Positions 4,838 through 27,624 of a DNA stretch of 27,624 nt are shown in pieces. A program made the position numbers and the translations under genes. Source of the DNA: a virus; IMG/VR virus record IMGVR_UViG_3300037847_006625, positions 1 through 27,624 of that record. One strand, 5' to 3'. Position 1 is the stretch's first letter, and each line of letters begins with the position of its first letter. Below the pieces are notes generated by a model. It saw nothing but the letters and a program-made list of their open reading frames with translations. It made no database searches and had not been told where the DNA came from.

Positions 4838-6748
4838 ATGGCAGATACAGGTTTATTTTCAAGGTTAAGACGATTATTTTCTACAGACGTAATTATTCGT
4901 AATGTAGGGGGCAATCAACTTAAAGTTTTTGATGTTAACAAGATACAACAGTCAGGTGAAATTGAAACAAATACTTTAATAGATAGATTTAATAGAATAT
5001 ATTCAAATTCATCAACATCATTATACGGACAACAATCACATTTTAATTACCAATATTTAAGACCACAATTATACTCAGAGTATGATTCAATGGATACAGA
5101 TGCTATTATTGCATCTGCATTAGATATTATAGCAGATGAGTCTACACTTAAAAATGATATGGGTGAAGTATTACAAATTAAATCTGCTGATGAAGATATA
5201 CAAAAAATCTTATATAATTTATTTTATGATGTTTTAAATATTGAATTTAATTTATGGCCTTGGGTTAGAAATTTAGCTAAATATGGTGATTTTTTCTTAA
5301 AGTTAGAAATTGCAGAAAAATTTGGTGTTTATAATGTTATTCCTTACACAGCATTTCATATTGAAAGATTAGAAGGTTTAGATAAAGATAATCCAACTGA
5401 AATTCAATTTAGATTCTCCCCAGATGGTGTATCTGCTTCTGATTATGGATACTATAATGTACCAAATCAAGGCACATTCCCAGATGCTATTATATTTGAT
5501 AATTATGAAATGGCTCACTTTAGATTATTAACAAATATGAATTTCTTACCTTATGGTAGATCATATATTGAGCCAGCTAGAAAATTATTTAAGCAGTATG
5601 TGTTAATGGAAGATGCAATGTTAATTCACAGAATTGTACGTGCACCTGAAAAACGTATTTTCTATATGAATGTTGGAGCTATTCCTCCAAATGAAGTAGA
5701 TGCGTTTATGGAAAAAACATTAAGTAAACTTAAACGTACTCCTCACGTAGATGAAAAAACTGGTGAGTATAATTTAAGATATAATATGCAAAATCTACTT
5801 GAAGATTATTACATCCCAGTTAGAGGTAATGATGCAAGTACTAAAATTGAAAGTGCAAATGGAATGCAGTGGGATGGTATTGCTGACGTTGAGTACTTAA
5901 GAGATAAATTATTTGCAGCTCTTAAAGTACCAAAAGCATTTATGGGTTATGATGAAAATACAGATGGTAAAGCTACACTAGCTGCTCAAGATATTAGATT
6001 CGCTCGTACAATTGAAAGAATACAAAGAATTGTAGTTTCAGAATTATATAAAATAGCATTAGTTCATTTATATACTCAAGGTTATAAAGATGAACAATTA
6101 TCTAATTTTGAATTATCACTAACAACACCTTCAATTATTTATGATCAAGAAAGAGTAGCATTAATGAAAGAAAAAATGGATTTAGCTGCTCAAATGGTTG
6201 AAACAAATATGTTCCCAACAGACTTCGTTTACGATCATCTATTCCATTTAAGTGAAGACCAATATGATGACTTTAGAGATTTAGTTAGAGAAGATGCTAA
6301 ACGTAAGTTTAGAATAGCTCAAATTGAAGCTGAAGGAAATGACCCAGTTGAAACAGGCCAGTCATATGGTACACCTCATGATTTAGCTACATTATATGGT
6401 AAAGGAAGAATGTATTCAAATCCTGGTGATATACCTCCACATAATGAGGATAACCAATATATAGGTAATAGAAAAACAGTTTTAGGAAGACCAAAAGAAA
6501 AAGCATCTAAGCGAAATACTCAAGATGATAATTTTGGAAAAGATAGATTAGGGGCAAAAGGTATGAAACGAGATTACAATGATCCTAAAAAAAGTTCTTT
6601 AGCATTAGAAAGTAATGCAAATTATATAAAGCATCAATCTATGTTAAAATCAATTCCAAGTGAATTTACACCTGGAAAAAAGTTAGTATTTGAGCAGGAT
6701 AACGCAAAAAGTTCGTTACTTGACGAATCAAATATTAAGGAACAATAA
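4838..6748 (+). CDS. 20: portal vertex protein (T4 gp20-like)
   Basis: 636 residues; twelve copies form the ring through which DNA enters and leaves the head. Similarity to T4-like portals runs through most of the length: an N-terminal SALDIIADEST region, the WPWVRNLAKYGDFFLKL segment, IERLEG, an RLLTNMNFLPYGRSYIEPARK block, RAPEKRIFYMNVG, and the KVPKAFMGYDENTDGKATLAAQ region leading to the crown. The C-terminal ~120 residues are hydrophilic and low in recognisable motifs. The gene follows terminase directly and has its own late promoter box. In T4 the sheath and tube genes 18 and 19 lie between genes 17 and 20; here they do not. Confidence 0.93.
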   Translation: MADTGLFSRLRRLFSTDVIIRNVGGNQLKVFDVNKIQQSGEIETNTLIDRFNRIYSNSSTSLYGQQSHFNYQYLRPQLYSEYDSMDTDAIIASALDIIADESTLKNDMGEVLQIKSADEDIQKILYNLFYDVLNIEFNLWPWVRNLAKYGDFFLKLEIAEKFGVYNVIPYTAFHIERLEGLDKDNPTEIQFRFSPDGVSASDYGYYNVPNQGTFPDAIIFDNYEMAHFRLLTNMNFLPYGRSYIEPARKLFKQYVLMEDAMLIHRIVRAPEKRIFYMNVGAIPPNEVDAFMEKTLSKLKRTPHVDEKTGEYNLRYNMQNLLEDYYIPVRGNDASTKIESANGMQWDGIADVEYLRDKLFAALKVPKAFMGYDENTDGKATLAAQDIRFARTIERIQRIVVSELYKIALVHLYTQGYKDEQLSNFELSLTTPSIIYDQERVALMKEKMDLAAQMVETNMFPTDFVYDHLFHLSEDQYDDFRDLVREDAKRKFRIAQIEAEGNDPVETGQSYGTPHDLATLYGKGRMYSNPGDIPPHNEDNQYIGNRKTVLGRPKEKASKRNTQDDNFGKDRLGAKGMKRDYNDPKKSSLALESNANYIKHQSMLKSIPSEFTPGKKLVFEQDNAKSSLLDESNIKEQ

Positions 6749-13540: not shown

Positions 13541-13569
13541 AAAACCCCGCATTAGCGGGGTTTTTTTTT
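13541..13569 (+). terminator. strong rho-independent terminator after major capsid gene
   Basis: Perfect 10-bp stem AAAACCCCGC (13541-13550) with GCGGGGTTTT (13555-13564), a 4-nt loop ATTA, and a run of nine T. It separates the capsid unit from the metabolic cassette that follows. Confidence 0.92.
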
Positions 13570-13600
13570 CTTTGGATACCTAGTTAGTAATTATTATATT

Positions 13601-13608
13601 TATTAACG
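13601..13608 (+). promoter_or_regulatory. weak late promoter-like box TATTAACG
   Basis: Shares the ATATTTAT context of the other boxes but departs from TATAAATA. It lies 31 nt before the ATG at 13632 and just after a strong terminator, where a promoter is needed. Confidence 0.3.
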
Positions 13609-13631: not shown

Positions 13632-14546
13632 ATGAAAGAAACTCCCTCGCAGTTGCCAATTCAAAGTTACGTAATGAACTTTCCTCATACATTTTCAACA
13701 GATGATCCTAATAATATCTGGATGAAAGAAATGTCAAATGAAGAATTACAAATTAACAGACCAAAAGCATATAAACAATTTATGGACCTCTATAATTTTA
13801 TAGCAGGTCAATCATTAGTACATCTACTCCCAGCGGAAGGTAATTTTCAAGATTTAATTTATGTAGCAAATTTAGGTTTACAATTACCTCATATTTGTGA
13901 TGAAAATCATATTTTACTTTCAAATTATACTTCACCACCAAGGCAAGGTGAAGAGTATGTAGGTGAAAAATTCTTTAATCAAATGGGTTATAAAACTCAC
14001 ATTTCTCCTCATAAATGGGAAGGTGAAGCTGATATAAAATATTTAAGTGATAATGTTTATATAGGTGGTTATGGTATCCGTTCCGATATTGAAACTTATA
14101 AATGGATGGAAGAAAACTTTGATATGAATATAATTAAAGTTAAAATGGTAGATGAATATATGTACCATTTAGATTGTAGTATTTTCCCGTTAAATCCAAA
14201 TGCAACTATGGTTTGTACAGAATTATATGATAAATCAGAGTTAGCACAAATAAACAAATATACAGATATAGTAGACATAGATGTAGAAGATTCTATGTAT
14301 GGAATGGCCAACTCAGTTAGATTAGGTAATATGATTTTATGTGCTTCAAACATTTCAGAACTTAAAAAATCAGATGAGTTTTATGAAGGTGAAAAACATA
14401 AAATTGAATCACTAGAAAAAATATGTTCACAACAAGGTATGGAACCTGTAATATTTAATTTATCAGAATATATGAAATCAGGAGCTATGTTATCTTGTAT
14501 GGTAATGCATTTAAATAGAGTTGATCATTTTAAAACCCTATTATAA
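13632..14546 (+). CDS. DDAH/arginine-deiminase-like hydrolase (guanidino-modifying enzyme superfamily)
   Basis: 304 residues covering the whole beta/alpha-propeller fold of the COG1834 dimethylarginine dimethylaminohydrolase/amidinotransferase group. Catalytic elements are in order: D in FQDLIYVAN (residues about 73-81), a PPRQGEE segment, E130 in WEGEAD, GGYGIRSD (residues about 143-150), H179 in YHLD and the nucleophile C289 in MLSCMV. All three expected catalytic residues (Glu, His, Cys) are kept, so it is probably active. Such enzymes hydrolyse or transfer from guanidino groups of arginine, methylarginines or agmatine; the substrate here cannot be told. Its stop shares one base with the next start codon, so it is coupled to the decarboxylase gene. 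Confidence 0.82.
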   Translation: MKETPSQLPIQSYVMNFPHTFSTDDPNNIWMKEMSNEELQINRPKAYKQFMDLYNFIAGQSLVHLLPAEGNFQDLIYVANLGLQLPHICDENHILLSNYTSPPRQGEEYVGEKFFNQMGYKTHISPHKWEGEADIKYLSDNVYIGGYGIRSDIETYKWMEENFDMNIIKVKMVDEYMYHLDCSIFPLNPNATMVCTELYDKSELAQINKYTDIVDIDVEDSMYGMANSVRLGNMILCASNISELKKSDEFYEGEKHKIESLEKICSQQGMEPVIFNLSEYMKSGAMLSCMVMHLNRVDHFKTLL

Positions 14547-15313
14547 TGGCTGAAAAATTAGAAGATTGGTTAAATGGTGAAGTAGCAGAATTGTCAAAAT
14601 TATCAGTTGGGGAATTAAGCAATACTTTCTTTTTTAGGGATCCCTTAAGATCAACTTATATAGATCATGAACATTTTTACAGCCCAGCAGATGGAACTAT
14701 TTTATATCAAAAAGTAGTTCAACCTGGTGAGCAAGTTTTAGAAATAAAAGGTATTGATTACACTATTCAAGATGTAATGGGTGATAGTGATTATGATAAA
14801 CCTTCTTTAGTTATTGGAATATTTATGTCGTTTTATGATGTACACATCAATAGAATTCCTTATGGAGGAGTTTTAAATTATAAACGTTTAGAACCTATTG
14901 AGTCTACAAATAAGCCAATGTTAGCGGTAGAGAAGGATATTTTAAATAAAGTAATCAATCCAAATAACATGGCATACTTAAAGTATAATGAAAGAATGTC
15001 TAACCAAGTGTATGTTCCTTCTTTAAATTACACATACCATATAATACAAATAGCAGATGAAGATGTAAACGTAATAGCCCCTTTTAAACAACAAGGGGAT
15101 CTTTGCGCTCAAAACGAAAGATTCAGTTTGATTAGATGGGGGTCACAAGTAGATTTAGTTCTACCTCTGGATTCTAGATATAATTTTGAGACCATTCTAG
15201 ATGATACAATGCATGTAAATGCTGGTCTTGATAAATTAGTAAAAATTAAAGAAACAAATAATGCCATCAAACCATCACGAGGACGAAATATTCAGACAAA
15301 AACGAATAGTTAA
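14546..15313 (+). CDS. psd: phosphatidylserine decarboxylase-type pyruvoyl enzyme
   Basis: 255 residues. The family converts phosphatidylserine to phosphatidylethanolamine, using a pyruvoyl group made by self-cleavage. Family features: FFRDPLR (residues 29-35), YSPADG with D49, DVHINRIPYGG with H100, and the cleavage site WGSQVD with S200. D49, H100 and S200 match the Asp-His-Ser triad of bacterial enzymes. The WGS-Q-VD site resembles the short soluble (archaeal-type GSRVD) branch rather than the LGST of E. coli. Cleavage would give a beta chain of 199 and an alpha chain of 56 residues. No membrane segment is seen. The gene overlaps PhoH by 53 nt. Confidence 0.85.
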   Translation: MAEKLEDWLNGEVAELSKLSVGELSNTFFFRDPLRSTYIDHEHFYSPADGTILYQKVVQPGEQVLEIKGIDYTIQDVMGDSDYDKPSLVIGIFMSFYDVHINRIPYGGVLNYKRLEPIESTNKPMLAVEKDILNKVINPNNMAYLKYNERMSNQVYVPSLNYTYHIIQIADEDVNVIAPFKQQGDLCAQNERFSLIRWGSQVDLVLPLDSRYNFETILDDTMHVNAGLDKLVKIKETNNAIKPSRGRNIQTKTNS

Positions 15314-22068: not shown

Positions 22069-25000
22069 ATGGCATTAGATAAAACTAAAAAATCAAATAG
22101 GTTACTCCAGAGTAGAAGATATACAATGGAGTCAAGTACGGATGCACAAGAAGCATTCACACGAGTACTTGACCTCAATGCTACTGAAATCTACATAGAT
22201 CAAGCAGAAATTCCTGCTACTGGGTTACCATATTCTGGTAGTAGTCAAAATGAACAATTTGTTTTATCTGGAAGTGCTAATTTATTAAAATATTACCATC
22301 AATTTCAATTAACACCTTCAAATGTTGTAAATGGTAGTAAAACAGAAGTATTCTTCTTTATATCAGCTTCGGGACATGATCCAACAACAGCAGTAACACC
22401 TCAAATTATACAATCAGGTCAACAAGGAAGTTTTATTTCACCAAAATATTCAGATCCTTCTTTAACAAATGCAGATACAGAAGATGCAACACCTGGTTAT
22501 AATGTAACTATTAGAGTAAATGGTACTAAACAAAATGCTGCAAATTATCAATTTGATTATAAAACTGGTGTTATACAATTTAATGACTCAGATGTAGCAC
22601 CTACTACAGGTGATACGGTAAGATGTTCGGCTTATCAATATGTAGCTAGAACATTAAATGATGGATTAGGTGCTAGTGGAGCAGGTTTTCCATTTTCAGG
22701 ATCAGCTCAAATAACAGGATCTGATGATGGTGGATTTGCTGTAACAGGTAGTAGTACATTTGATATAAGTGGAACAGGAAAAGAATTTCAAATAAAATCT
22801 GCACCAGTTCAAGATTTTCCTTTTGTATTAACATATGCAACAGGATCAGGTAAAATAGGATATGTTGAAGTATCAAGTGGTACTAGTGGTATAGCAGGTT
22901 CTAGTGGTACAGCTGGTCAATCAGGTACTTCTGGTTCTTCAGGTTCTTCAGGTTCAAGCGGATCTTCTGGTTCTTCTGGTGTAGCAGGAGCTTCAGGATT
23001 AAGTAATACAGCAGGATCCTCAGGTTCATCAGGTGAAGATGGTACTTCAGGACAAGGAGGAACTAATGGTTCAAGTGGTGCTTCAGGTACTTCAGGTTCT
23101 TCAGGTTCTTCAGGTACTAGTGGAGCTACAGGTACAACTGGATCTTCAGGTGAAAGTGGAGCAAGCGGAACTAACGGTTCAAGTGGTTTAAGTAGAACTA
23201 CAGGTACATCTGGTTCCTCAGGTACTTCAGGTTCAAGTGGTGGTAATGGTACTTCTGGAACAAGTAGAACATCAGGTTCATCAGGTACAACAGGTTCATC
23301 AGGTTCAGCAGGTAATGCAGGAGCAAGTGGGTTAAGTAATACATCAGGTTCAGCAGGTTCAAGTGGTGAGGATGGTACTTCAGGACAAGGTGGTACAAAT
23401 GGTTCAAGTGGGGCTTCAGGAACTAGTGGATCATCAGGTACATCAGGATCAAGTGGTGAAGCAGGAGCTGCAGGTTCATCAGCTTCAAGTAATACTTCCG
23501 GTACTTCAGGATCTAATGGTTCAAATGGTGAAGCAGGAGGAGCTGGATCTAGTGCATCAAGTAACACTTCTGGTTCTTCAGGTACATCAGGATCAAATGG
23601 TGAAGATGGAGCAGCAGGAGCTAGTGCATCAAGTAATACTTCAGGTACTAGTGGTTCAAGTGGTTCTTCTGGTAACGCAGGTGCTGCTGGTTTAAGTAAT
23701 ACTTCTGGTTCAAGCGGTTCATCTGGAGAAGATGGTACTTCAGGACAAGGTGGTACAAATGGTTCAAGTGGAGCTTCAGGTACAAGTGGATCTTCAGGTT
23801 CAAATGGATCCTCAGGTGCAACAGCAACAGCTGGTCAAAGTTCATCAAGTGAAACTTCAGGTACAAGCGGATCAAATGGTTCTAATGGAGCTGAAGCTAC
23901 TGCAGGTGGAAGCACAGCAAGTGCTACTTCAGGTTCATCTGGTACATCAGGTTCAAATGGAGAAGCAGGTGCAGCAGGAGCTAGTGCATCAAGTAACACT
24001 TCAGGTACTTCAGGATCTAATGGTTCAGCTGGTAATGCAGGAGCTGCTGGTTTAAGTAACACCTCAGGTTCAAGTGGTTCATCAGGTGCAGACGGTACTT
24101 CAGGACAAGCCGGTACTTCAGGTTCTGCAGGTACAGCAGGAGCATCAGGTTTAAGCAATACTTCAGGATCTTCAGGAACTAGTGGTTCATCAGGAGCAGC
24201 TGGTAATGCAGGTGAAAGTGCATCTTCAAATACTTCAGGTTCATCAGGTACTTCAGGTTCTAATGGAGAAGCGGGAGCTGCTGGTTCAAGTGCTTCTTCA
24301 AATACAAGTGGTACTTCAGGTTCAGCAGGTTCAAATGGAGAAGCAGGTGCAGCCGGTTCATCAGCTGCAAGTAATACTTCAGGTACTTCTGGTTCTAGTG
24401 GTTCAGCAGGAAATGCAGGTGCTGCTGGTTTAAGCAATACATCAGGTTCTTCAGGTTCATCAGGTGCAGACGGTACATCAGGCCAAGCTGGTACTAGTGG
24501 TTCAGCAGGTACAGCAGGAGCTTCAGGATTAAGTAATACATCAGGTTCATCAGGTACATCAGGATCAAGTGGTGCGGCAGGAGCAGCAGGTGAAAGTGCA
24601 TCTTCAAATACTTCAGGATCTTCAGGTACAGCGGGTTCAAATGGTGAAGCGGGTGCTGCAGGGTCTTCAGCTTCAAGTAACACATCAGGAACATCAGGTT
24701 CAGCAGGTTCAAATGGTGAAGCAGGTGCAGCCGGTTCATCAGCTGCAAGTAATACTTCAGGTACTAGTGGTTCAAGTGGTTCTTCTGGTAATGCAGGAGC
24801 AGCTGGTTTAAGTAACACTTCTGGTTCTTCAGGTTCAAGTGGTGCAGATGGTACTTCAGGTCAAGCTGGTACTTCAGGATCTTCAGGTACAGCAGGAGCA
24901 TCAGGATCAAGTAATACTTCTGGTTCATCTGGTACATCAGGTTCAAGTGGTGCAGCTGGAGAAGCAGGAGCAAGTGCATCTTCAAATACTTCAGGTTCAT

Positions 25001-27624
25001 CTGGTACATCAGGTTCAGCAGGTTCAAGTGGTGAAGCAGGGGCAGCAGGTTCAAGTGCAGCAAGTAATACATCAGGAACATCAGGTTCGGCAGGTTCAAA
25101 TGGAGAAGCAGGAGAAGCAGGTTCAAGTTCAGCAAGTGCGACTTCAGGATCTTCTGGTACTAGTGGTTCGTCAGGAACAGAAGCAACTGCAGGTGCTAGT
25201 ACGGCATCAGCAACTAGTGGATCATCAGGTACATCAGGTTCAAATGGTGAGGCAGGAGCTGCTGGTTCATCGGCTTCAAGTAACACATCAGGAACATCAG
25301 GTTCAACAGGTACTAGTGGTTCAGCAGGTAATGCAGGAGCATCAGGCTTAAGTAACACTTCTGGTTCTTCAGGTTCATCAGGTGCGGATGGAACTTCAGG
25401 TCAAGCTGGTACTAGTGGTTCATCAGGTACAGCAGGAGCTTCAGGTTCAAGCAATACATCAGGTTCATCAGGTACTTCTGGTTCAACAGGAAATGCAGGT
25501 AATGCAGGTGCTAGTGCATCTTCAAATACAAGTGGTTCATCAGGAACTTCAGGTTCGAGTGGTGAAGCAGGAGGAGCTGGTTCAAGTGCTTCAAGTAACA
25601 CATCAGGAACATCAGGTTCGGCAGGTTCAAATGGAGAAGCAGGAGAAGCAGGTTCTAGCGCAGTAAGTAGTACTTCAGGTACTTCAGGTTCAAATGGTTC
25701 AAATGGTGCTGCAGGTGAAGCAGGTGCTAGTGCAGCAAGTAATACATCAGGTACTAGTGGTTCTAATGGTTCATCAGGAGCAGCTGGTAATGCAGGTGCA
25801 AGTAATACATCAGGAACATCAGGTTCATCAGGTTCAAATGGTGAAGGAGGAGCAGCAGGTTCAAGTGCTTCAAGTAATACATCAGGTACTAGTGGTTCAA
25901 ATGGTTCATCAGGAAATGCAGGAGCTTCAGGATTAAGCAATACATCAGGTTCAGCTGGTTCAAGCGGTAATGATGGAACTTCAGGACAAGGTGGTACTTC
26001 AGGTTCTAGTGGTGCTTCTGGAGGATCAGGAACAAGTGGATCTTCAGGTACTTCAGGTTCAAGTGGTGCAGCAGGAGCAGCAGGTGAAAGTGCTTCAAGT
26101 AATACTTCAGGTACTAGTGGTTCAAGTGGTTCAAATGGTGAAGCAGGAGCAGCAGGAGCAAGTTCAGCAAGTGCAACTTCAGGATCTTCTGGTACATCAG
26201 GTTCAAGCGGTGCAGAGGCAGATGCAGGTACAAGTTCAGCAAGTGCAACATCAGGTTCAACAGGTACTTCAGGTTCAAGTGGTACAGAAGCAGAAGCAGG
26301 TGCTAGTACGGCATCAGCAACTAGTGGATCATCAGGTACATCAGGATCAAGTGGTGAAGCAGGTGCTGCAGGTTCATCAGCTTCAAGTAATACTTCAGGT
26401 ACTAGTGGTTCTAATGGTTCAAATGGTGCTGCGGGTAATGCTGGAGAAAGTGCAAATTCAGGTACTTCAGGAACAAGCGGATCAAATGGTTCAAATGGAG
26501 AAGCAGGAGGAGCTGGATCTAGTGCAGCAAGTAACACTTCTGGTTCATCAGGTACATCAGGTTCAAGTGGAGCAGCTGGTGGATCAGGTGCAAGTAAAAC
26601 TTCAGGTACTTCTGGTTCTACAGGTTCATCAGGTAATGCAGGGGCGTCAGGATTAAGTAATACATCAGGTTCAGCAGGTTCATCTGGTAATGATGGTACT
26701 TCAGGACAAAGTGGTACTTCAGGTTCAGCTGGAGCTTCAGGTTCAAGTAATACATCAGGATCTTCAGGAACTAGCGGTTCATCAGGAGCAGCTGGAGAAG
26801 CAGGAGCAAGTGCATCATCAGCTACTTCAGGAACAACTGGATCAAGTGGTTCAAGTGGTGAAGCAGGTGCAGCAGGTTCTTCAGCTTCAAGTAATACTTC
26901 AGGTACTTCAGGATCTAGTGGTTCTAATGGTGAAACAGGAGCAGCAGGTTTAAGTAGGGCTTCAGGTACTTCAGGTTCATCAGGTACAAATGGTTCTTCA
27001 GGTGTAACAGGTTCAGCAGGAGCAAGTAAAGCTTCAAATACAAGTGGATCTTCAGGTACGTCAGGTTCTAATGGTGCTGATGGAGAAGCAGGATCTTCAG
27101 CTTCAAGTAAAACTTCAGGTACTTCTGGTTCAACAGGTACTTCAGGTTCAAGTGGTGATGCTGGTAACTCAGGTCAAAGTTCAGGATCAGGTACATCAGG
27201 AACAACAGGATCAAACGGATCCTCAGGTGCAGAAGCAGATTCAGGTTCAAGTACAGAAAGTGGAACTTCAGGTACTTCAGGATCAAATGGTTCTAGTGGT
27301 GAAACAGGTGGTTCAGGTTTAAGTAGAGCTTCAGGTACTTCGGGATCAAGCGGAACAAATGGTTCTTCAGGTGTAACAGGTTCAGCGGGTGCAAGTAAAG
27401 CTTCAAATACAAGTGGTTCATCTGGTACTTCAGGTTCTAATGGTGCAGATGGTGAAGCAGGTTCTTCAGCTTCAAGTAAAACTTCAGGTACTAGTGGTTC
27501 AAGTGGTTCAAGTGGAGTAGATGGAGAAGCAGGAACAAGTGGTAATGCAGGAACTTCTGGAGCAAGTGCAACATCAGGTTCAGTTGGTTCAAGTGGTAAT
27601 AGTGGTACTTCAGGTAATGCTGGT
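22069..27624 (+). CDS. giant collagen-like fibre protein (3' end outside window)
   Basis: The frame opens with ATG at 22069 and runs without a stop to the right edge: 1852 codons. Residues 1-270 are a globular N-terminal part: ARTL, TGVIQF and FDYKTG segments resemble the beta-sandwich N-domains of marine tail fibres and may bind the baseplate. From residue 271 (22879) the protein is an almost unbroken series of Gly-X-Y triplets, about 527 in the window, using mainly Ser, Thr, Ala, Asn and Glu, with no proline or aromatic residue seen. Glycine is replaced at regular places by Ala, Asn, Lys or Arg (GSSASSNTS, GLSNTS), while the triplet register is kept. It probably forms a long shaft; the receptor-binding end lies outside. 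Confidence 0.88.
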   Translation, partial: MALDKTKKSNRLLQSRRYTMESSTDAQEAFTRVLDLNATEIYIDQAEIPATGLPYSGSSQNEQFVLSGSANLLKYYHQFQLTPSNVVNGSKTEVFFFISASGHDPTTAVTPQIIQSGQQGSFISPKYSDPSLTNADTEDATPGYNVTIRVNGTKQNAANYQFDYKTGVIQFNDSDVAPTTGDTVRCSAYQYVARTLNDGLGASGAGFPFSGSAQITGSDDGGFAVTGSSTFDISGTGKEFQIKSAPVQDFPFVLTYATGSGKIGYVEVSSGTSGIAGSSGTAGQSGTSGSSGSSGSSGSSGSSGVAGASGLSNTAGSSGSSGEDGTSGQGGTNGSSGASGTSGSSGSSGTSGATGTTGSSGESGASGTNGSSGLSRTTGTSGSSGTSGSSGGNGTSGTSRTSGSSGTTGSSGSAGNAGASGLSNTSGSAGSSGEDGTSGQGGTNGSSGASGTSGSSGTSGSSGEAGAAGSSASSNTSGTSGSNGSNGEAGGAGSSASSNTSGSSGTSGSNGEDGAAGASASSNTSGTSGSSGSSGNAGAAGLSNTSGSSGSSGEDGTSGQGGTNGSSGASGTSGSSGSNGSSGATATAGQSSSSETSGTSGSNGSNGAEATAGGSTASATSGSSGTSGSNGEAGAAGASASSNTSGTSGSNGSAGNAGAAGLSNTSGSSGSSGADGTSGQAGTSGSAGTAGASGLSNTSGSSGTSGSSGAAGNAGESASSNTSGSSGTSGSNGEAGAAGSSASSNTSGTSGSAGSNGEAGAAGSSAASNTSGTSGSSGSAGNAGAAGLSNTSGSSGSSGADGTSGQAGTSGSAGTAGASGLSNTSGSSGTSGSSGAAGAAGESASSNTSGSSGTAGSNGEAGAAGSSASSNTSGTSGSAGSNGEAGAAGSSAASNTSGTSGSSGSSGNAGAAGLSNTSGSSGSSGADGTSGQAGTSGSSGTAGASGSSNTSGSSGTSGSSGAAGEAGASASSNTSGSSGTSGSAGSSGEAGAAGSSAASNTSGTSGSAGSNGEAGEAGSSSASATSGSSGTSGSSGTEATAGASTASATSGSSGTSGSNGEAGAAGSSASSNTSGTSGSTGTSGSAGNAGASGLSNTSGSSGSSGADGTSGQAGTSGSSGTAGASGSSNTSGSSGTSGSTGNAGNAGASASSNTSGSSGTSGSSGEAGGAGSSASSNTSGTSGSAGSNGEAGEAGSSAVSSTSGTSGSNGSNGAAGEAGASAASNTSGTSGSNGSSGAAGNAGASNTSGTSGSSGSNGEGGAAGSSASSNTSGTSGSNGSSGNAGASGLSNTSGSAGSSGNDGTSGQGGTSGSSGASGGSGTSGSSGTSGSSGAAGAAGESASSNTSGTSGSSGSNGEAGAAGASSASATSGSSGTSGSSGAEADAGTSSASATSGSTGTSGSSGTEAEAGASTASATSGSSGTSGSSGEAGAAGSSASSNTSGTSGSNGSNGAAGNAGESANSGTSGTSGSNGSNGEAGGAGSSAASNTSGSSGTSGSSGAAGGSGASKTSGTSGSTGSSGNAGASGLSNTSGSAGSSGNDGTSGQSGTSGSAGASGSSNTSGSSGTSGSSGAAGEAGASASSATSGTTGSSGSSGEAGAAGSSASSNTSGTSGSSGSNGETGAAGLSRASGTSGSSGTNGSSGVTGSAGASKASNTSGSSGTSGSNGADGEAGSSASSKTSGTSGSTGTSGSSGDAGNSGQSSGSGTSGTTGSNGSSGAEADSGSSTESGTSGTSGSNGSSGETGGSGLSRASGTSGSSGTNGSSGVTGSAGASKASNTSGSSGTSGSNGADGEAGSSASSKTSGTSGSSGSSGVDGEAGTSGNAGTSGASATSGSVGSSGNSGTSGNAG
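24058..24813 (+). repeat. two tandem 378-bp super-repeat copies, a third starting at 24814
   Basis: Copies at 24058-24435 and 24436-24813 each encode 126 residues arranged as blocks of 11, 8, 8, 8 and 7 triplets, each block opening with Asn-Thr-Ser. By hand the two copies differ at three residues. The next block set begins at 24814 and soon diverges in length. Confidence 0.88.
25189..25238 (+). repeat. 50-nt exact direct repeat, copy 1
   Basis: Identical to 26296-26345, 1107 nt downstream, in the same frame (369 codons apart). Both encode Ala then GASTASATSGSSGTSG. Confidence 0.85.
26296..26345 (+). repeat. 50-nt exact direct repeat, copy 2
   Basis: Exact match of 25189-25238; points to a fairly recent duplication or gene conversion within the fibre gene. 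Confidence 0.85.
26932..27480 (+). repeat. 369-bp spaced repeat near right edge
   Basis: A module encoding GETG, GLSRASGTSG, GTNGSSGVTGSAGASKASN and GADGEAGSSASSK starts at 26932 and again at 27301, a 369-nt step (123 codons). Protein is nearly identical; DNA differs at several synonymous sites. Confidence 0.85.

Follow-up and report, generated by a model that had tools for sequence, protein, structure and literature searches.

Phosphatidylserine decarboxylases (PSDs) of the Pfam family PF02666, such as E. coli Psd and the small bacterial and archaeal enzymes, share the residues of a common maturation, and mutagenesis of the E. coli enzyme has established that D90, H144 and the G253-S254 pair drive its auto-cleavage (PMC7952604). 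In the same enzyme Tyr137, Ser166 and Val167 contact the phosphate, the sn-1 acyl chain rests on Leu13, Leu18 and Thr204, and acyl-free analogues are not acted on (PMC7952604), an indication that the lipid chains are important to the genuine enzyme. PsiD, the PSD-like L-tryptophan decarboxylase of psilocybin synthesis (PMC6121855), uses a free amino acid as its substrate; it offers a precedent for enzymes of this family changing to free amino acids, although its description as fungal, type II PSD-like, bearing a GGSS motif and using an aromatic substrate sets it apart from the proteins considered here. Pyruvoyl-dependent ornithine and arginine decarboxylases derived from SpeD (SpeDC and SpeDA) occur in phages and bacteria (PMC9992855, PMC10407285), and resemble the enzyme proposed below in reaction, cofactor and presence in phages, but come from AdoMet decarboxylase (PF02675) rather than from the PSD family. 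A survey of polyamine metabolism in the virosphere reports no phage arginase and mentions neither phosphatidylserine decarboxylase nor arginine dihydrolase (PMC9992855). Phage genes bearing the PSD name are already on record, as Fletchervirus genomes list a 'phosphatidylserine decarboxylase' and an 'amidinotransferase' (e.g. gp085 and gp044 of NCTC12673), and psd has been listed among the auxiliary metabolic genes (AMGs) of ocean viruses with a phospholipid interpretation (PMC11360552). What is new here is the pairing of the two genes and the functional reassignment that we propose; no published link between dihydrolase and PSD-type genes was found in the literature searched.

The stretch of DNA analysed here (the window, 27,624 nt) is a fragment of a T4-like phage genome with genes for terminase, portal, prohead protease, gp23, PhoH and neck proteins. 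The gene for the gp23 major capsid protein lies 5′ of the decarboxylase ORF, and PhoH follows directly on its 3′ side, then a head-tail adaptor-like gene. A one-base overlap, absent from the preliminary description of this DNA, joins it to an upstream dihydrolase-like gene (13632-14546), and the two genes form one unit with the following features:

13541..13570, + strand: intrinsic terminator that follows the gene for the major capsid protein; hairpin ACCCCGCATTAGCGGGGT and a T run (terminator scan)
13577..13603, + strand: promoter/operator-like element TACCTAGTTAGTAATTATTATATTTAT, sole copy in the window, 5′ of the two-gene unit; putative function
13632..14546, + strand: ArgZ-like arginine dihydrolase gene, 304 aa (NCBIfam Arg_dihydro, 1.5e-25; matches to structures 6jv0 and 6lrf)
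13869-13871, + strand: dihydrolase N80 codon
13941-13943, + strand: dihydrolase R104 codon
14019-14021, + strand: dihydrolase E130 codon
14079-14081, + strand: dihydrolase R150 codon
14166-14168, + strand: dihydrolase H179 codon
14496-14498, + strand: dihydrolase C289 codon
14544..14548, + strand: TAATG, dihydrolase stop codon overlapping the decarboxylase start codon (read from the sequence; 151 of the 158 viral loci share this spacing)
14546..15313, + strand: PSD-fold, pyruvoyl-type decarboxylase gene, 255 aa, ATG start (PF02666, 5.3e-24; phrog_12670, 7.5e-42; profile comparison)
14690..14692, + strand: decarboxylase D49 codon, aligned with D90 of E. coli PSD
14843..14845, + strand: decarboxylase H100 codon, aligned with H144 of E. 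coli PSD
15056..15058, + strand: decarboxylase D171 codon, subfamily-specific invariant Asp, equivalent to A203 of E. coli PSD, beside T204 of the acyl pocket
15140..15145, + strand: decarboxylase G199-S200 codons, predicted self-cleavage site and pyruvoyl-forming Ser, aligned with G253-S254 of E. coli PSD

PF02666 is the only Pfam family matched by the decarboxylase ORF, at E = 5.3e-24 and 85.4 bits, far above the curated cut-off of 22, over residues 27-227 (profile positions 6-193 of 198). Profile-profile comparison (hhalign) with four ordinary PSDs gave a probability of 99.8% (E = 1.3e-27) over 186 aligned columns that include the Ser site; identity to a reference PSD is about 28%. The protein also matches phrog_12670, a family annotated as of unknown function, at 7.5e-42. 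A profile search of the PDB matched the E. coli PSD structures 6l06 and 7cnw, and a phmmer search of the PDB with the decarboxylase sequence returned no matches. Two AlphaFold runs on 18-row alignments yielded weak models (pTM 0.71-0.72, mean pLDDT 66-72), for which Foldseek against the PDB retrieved neither a PSD nor any other confident match. With the ordinary enzymes the phage protein shares, besides the profile family, the D/H/S residues, the NER motif and the GS site. D49, H100 and G199-S200 are invariant in 78/78 distinct relatives and dN/dS between close relatives of the decarboxylase is 0.03-0.12, which together indicate that the gene is under strong purifying selection. The decarboxylase is very probably self-cleaving, at the bond that joins G199 to S200, and would thereby form a pyruvoyl group. 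The preliminary description had assigned the gene to the PSD family, had pointed out the retained D49, H100 and S200, and had placed it inside a phage structural cluster; our analysis bears out all three statements, the gene lying between gp23 and the PhoH and neck genes. An assignment to the SpeD-type pyruvoyl ornithine decarboxylases was also considered and rejected, as the protein has homology to PF02666 only and none to PF02675.

Compared with ordinary PSDs, the phage type has no membrane segment, no PG loop, an insert of about 20 residues, an invariant Asp and a dihydrolase partner. All 15 NCBIfam PSD equivalog models were missed, the best match reaching 78.9 bits where the cut-off is 183; this cut-off is strict, since an ordinary Bacteroidota PSD also falls short of it (166.8 vs 183), but the gap is far larger for the phage type. 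The N-terminal 19-residue hydropathy maximum is at most 0.6 in the phage type versus 2.2-2.9 in four small PSDs, a test that is weaker against the E. coli type of PSD, whose amphipathic helices score 0.7 and are not separated by it. The phosphate-binding Tyr137 of the E. coli enzyme has a retained counterpart in Tyr97. The PG loop of all compared PSDs is lost, its Gly being present in 7/7 PSDs and 0/8 phage-type proteins, and the insert, as judged relative to the small PSDs, follows this loop. The A/G/S found in PSDs next to the acyl pocket is replaced by D171 in 78/78 phage-type sequences, and a second acidic residue stands at position 173 in 74 of these 78. A carboxylate at D171, which sequence alignment places where the lipid chain would lie, would suit a cationic side chain. 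The case for a departure from lipid binding is strong, and the best explanation of these sequence features is that the decarboxylase, although of the PSD superfamily, is a soluble protein and would no longer act on phospholipid.

The upstream protein matched the NCBIfam models for arginine dihydrolase (1.5e-25) and dimethylargininase (1.8e-24), and its gene (13632-14546) had no Pfam match. By sequence it matches the N-terminal domain of cyanobacterial ArgZ and AgrE, whose structures are solved (6jv0, 6lrf), and keeps their catalytic residues, but it is devoid of the ornithine cyclodeaminase domain and scores below both the curated ArgZ cut-off (89.9 vs 450 bits) and the DDAH cut-off, so that its own product is not certain. 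C289, H179, E130, R150, N28 and N80 are conserved in 76/76 sequences and R104 in all aligned rows. We take C289, H179 and E130 to be the catalytic residues, R104 and R150 to be the pair that binds the α-carboxylate of the substrate, and N28 and N80 to be the dihydrolase-type asparagines that mark ornithine-releasing dihydrolases and set them apart from DDAH. Retention of the Arg pair argues against agmatine as the dihydrolase substrate and for ornithine as the product handed on.

The dihydrolase accompanies the decarboxylase nearly without exception. INPHARED contains 45 phage records that encode the PSD type, 39 of Campylobacter and 6 of Bacteroides phages, and all 45 also have the dihydrolase. 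One further Campylobacter record, PP921807, has the dihydrolase, in pieces, without the PSD type; with 619 short features in 132 kb it appears frameshift-ridden and was given no weight. The three other dihydrolase matches in INPHARED are remote and DDAH/deiminase-like. In IMG/VR, both genes are present in 158/158 viral loci with room for them, and the TAATG spacing recurs in 151. Since the phage records represent few lineages, these counts are not independent events, and the changed positions of the genes are the stronger point: the two genes are adjacent in Bacteroides phage SJC03, and both are kept in Campylobacter phage NCTC12673, where they are found at 33.7 kb and 76.6 kb, separated by about 42 kb. 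The Fletchervirus proteins belong to these two families, with identities of about 37% and 39-40%, and are always both present, but their genes are far apart and their annotation makes no functional connection between them. The pair also occurs in bacteria. A PSD-type gene, a dihydrolase gene and an ABC exporter gene follow one another in this order on a contig of a Methylococcaceae MAG, where the neighbours are MiaB- and RecD-like, and again in a second genome from the Pseudomonadota; the order of the pair is opposite to that in phages, and the two exporters are 32% identical to each other. A wider search for bacterial copies found only one more among 399 Pseudomonadota. Among 346 Bacteroidota it found, apart from ordinary PSDs that are distant, just one MAG contig, which is probably viral. 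The pairing is thus near-obligate, and the link between the two genes is strong.

These findings make a coupled small-molecule module a well-supported reading of the two genes. Because the pairing with a dihydrolase coincides with the loss of lipid-handling features, a role from arginine to putrescine is likelier than remodelling of the host membrane, and we give a slight preference to a two-gene arginine-ornithine-putrescine route that would employ a repurposed PSD-fold pyruvoyl decarboxylase. According to this model, the dihydrolase would convert L-arginine into L-ornithine, ammonia and CO2, and putrescine would arise when the PSD-fold enzyme decarboxylates ornithine, a substrate assignment suggested by genomic pairing and residue chemistry. 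Infected cells would then contain more putrescine and, by the action of the host's own enzymes, more spermidine, while the host agmatine route would be bypassed. The polyamine could serve translation and charge neutralisation of the packaged DNA. B. thetaiotaomicron makes putrescine by the SpeA-AIH-NCPAH route, through agmatine and N-carbamoylputrescine, and its NCPAH is inhibited by agmatine, spermidine and putrescine; the same putrescine route is cited for C. jejuni, and both species make spermidine via carboxyspermidine (PMC10135574). These cultured hosts are consistent with the proposal, and a phage ornithine route would evade the feedback control of NCPAH. SpeD (PF02675) was absent from the seven phage genomes in which it was sought, and neither classical ornithine/arginine decarboxylases nor the saccharopine-dehydrogenase families were found in the large phage genomes. 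More broadly, a separate pyruvoyl ornithine decarboxylase may have arisen from a lipid-enzyme family and may form, with the dihydrolase, a complete pathway in a few bacteria and in T4-like phages that infect Bacteroidota and Campylobacter; the odds of this proposition appear to us evenly balanced.

The same kind of module could act on a different amine, the PSD-fold enzyme decarboxylating another amino acid or an ornithine or arginine derivative, with the dihydrolase acting before or after it; candidate substrates are arginine (which would give agmatine), citrulline, and amino-acyl groups attached to a nucleoside or to some other metabolite. Both the pairing and the lost lipid features would fit any such substrate, and the presence of an exporter in each bacterial operon suggests that the product is a dedicated one; export of an amine that is not putrescine would fit these operons as well. 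The dihydrolase nevertheless keeps both of the Arg residues expected to bind a carboxylate, and we consider this alternative possible but rather unlikely.

The arginine-to-putrescine route must also be weighed against a genuine decarboxylase of phosphatidylserine or another serine phospholipid that shifts the host membrane, as the Fletchervirus annotation would have it. Pfam membership, the intact D/H/S residues and the retained Tyr97 agree with such an activity. Against it stand the missed equivalog cut-offs, the absent membrane segment, the lost PG loop, the Asp beside the acyl pocket, the need of the E. coli enzyme for lipid chains (PMC7952604), and a conserved partner that is an enzyme of arginine. 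Moreover, a PssA-type gene was sought in nine large phage genomes and found in none (0/9), unlike the situation of two plasmid PSDs that adjoin pssA. Both bacterial genomes with the operon hold a separate, genuine E. coli-like PSD (about 210 bits), which makes the operon copy unlikely to be their phosphatidylethanolamine-making enzyme. Taken together, the equivalog misses, the absence of a membrane segment, the rebuilt acyl and phosphate-loop region, the dihydrolase partner and the separate bacterial PSDs leave phospholipid action unsupported, and we regard it as improbable. Consequently, the earlier proposal of phospholipid head-group synthesis with a shift towards phosphatidylethanolamine is not upheld, the partner being a dihydrolase and not a PS synthase; its other suggestion, a serine-like substrate, comes nearer than a phospholipid, but the genomic evidence points to ornithine. 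The description of the gene as an unusual AMG holds in that it is probably metabolic, but the Fletchervirus gene names and the ocean-virus AMG list (PMC11360552) are precedents for it. Finally, a virion or assembly protein with no enzymatic role, kept beside the capsid genes, is very improbable, for while the gene adjoins gp23 in the marine phages, it does not in Campylobacter phages, it occurs in bacterial chromosomes, and all its maturation residues are invariant.

If the arginine-to-putrescine route is correct, it would supply the arginine-to-ornithine enzyme of phages that is missing from the virosphere polyamine survey, add another protein family to the known phage routes to putrescine, and represent the recruitment of a phospholipid-enzyme fold for polyamine synthesis. 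It would also correct an annotation shared by numerous Campylobacter phage records and an ocean-virus AMG survey. The proposal is directly testable, as the pair is present in cultured phages that infect C. jejuni and B. thetaiotaomicron.

We also examined the region between gp23 and the pair. Of 70 distinct upstream regions, 57 have a hairpin with a T run and 68 keep the TATRTnTAT part of the promoter-like element; the T4 late-promoter motif TATAAATA was sought just upstream of the pair and not found there. The conserved terminator and the window-unique promoter-like element make a separate transcription unit probable, and the overlapping stop and start codons suggest that the two genes are probably translationally coupled. 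In several relatives (L118-L196), the element upstream of the dihydrolase, after the gp23 terminator, has inverted ACCTA...TAGGT halves.

Further observations concern the relatives and the remainder of the window. One viral locus (L091) carries a GIY-YIG homing endonuclease-like gene (4997-5998) between the dihydrolase and the decarboxylase. Several loci (L060-L070) have a PhoH type of 47-50% identity 3′ of the pair while the pair itself is 80-89% identical, a replacement that marks a module boundary there. The Flavobacteriales MAG contig NZWA01000018.1 (L085) encodes at its end a window-type protein, 100% identical over 213 residues, and is probably phage DNA binned into the MAG. The Methylococcaceae MAG encodes a third PSD-family protein (L202, contig G001:C428) of 446 aa, with a long N-terminal domain and an FGGST motif reminiscent of the GGSS of PsiD. 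At its start, the window (+ strand) encodes the C-terminal part of an FAD/NAD-type dehydrogenase (36-926; phrog_12409, 1.3e-7), cut by the window edge; the flanking sequences retrieved for relatives showed no counterpart of it. Next to the terminase side are a cupin that is weakly WbuC-like (1215-1625) and a small P-loop kinase-like protein that is weakly NadR-like (1628-2158), both on the + strand. At the other end, an open frame of at least 1852 aa runs off the window (22069-27624, + strand) and consists mostly of Gly-X-Y triplets (GTSGSSGTSGSNGEAGAAG...), a composition that makes it a probable collagen-like tail-fibre gene.
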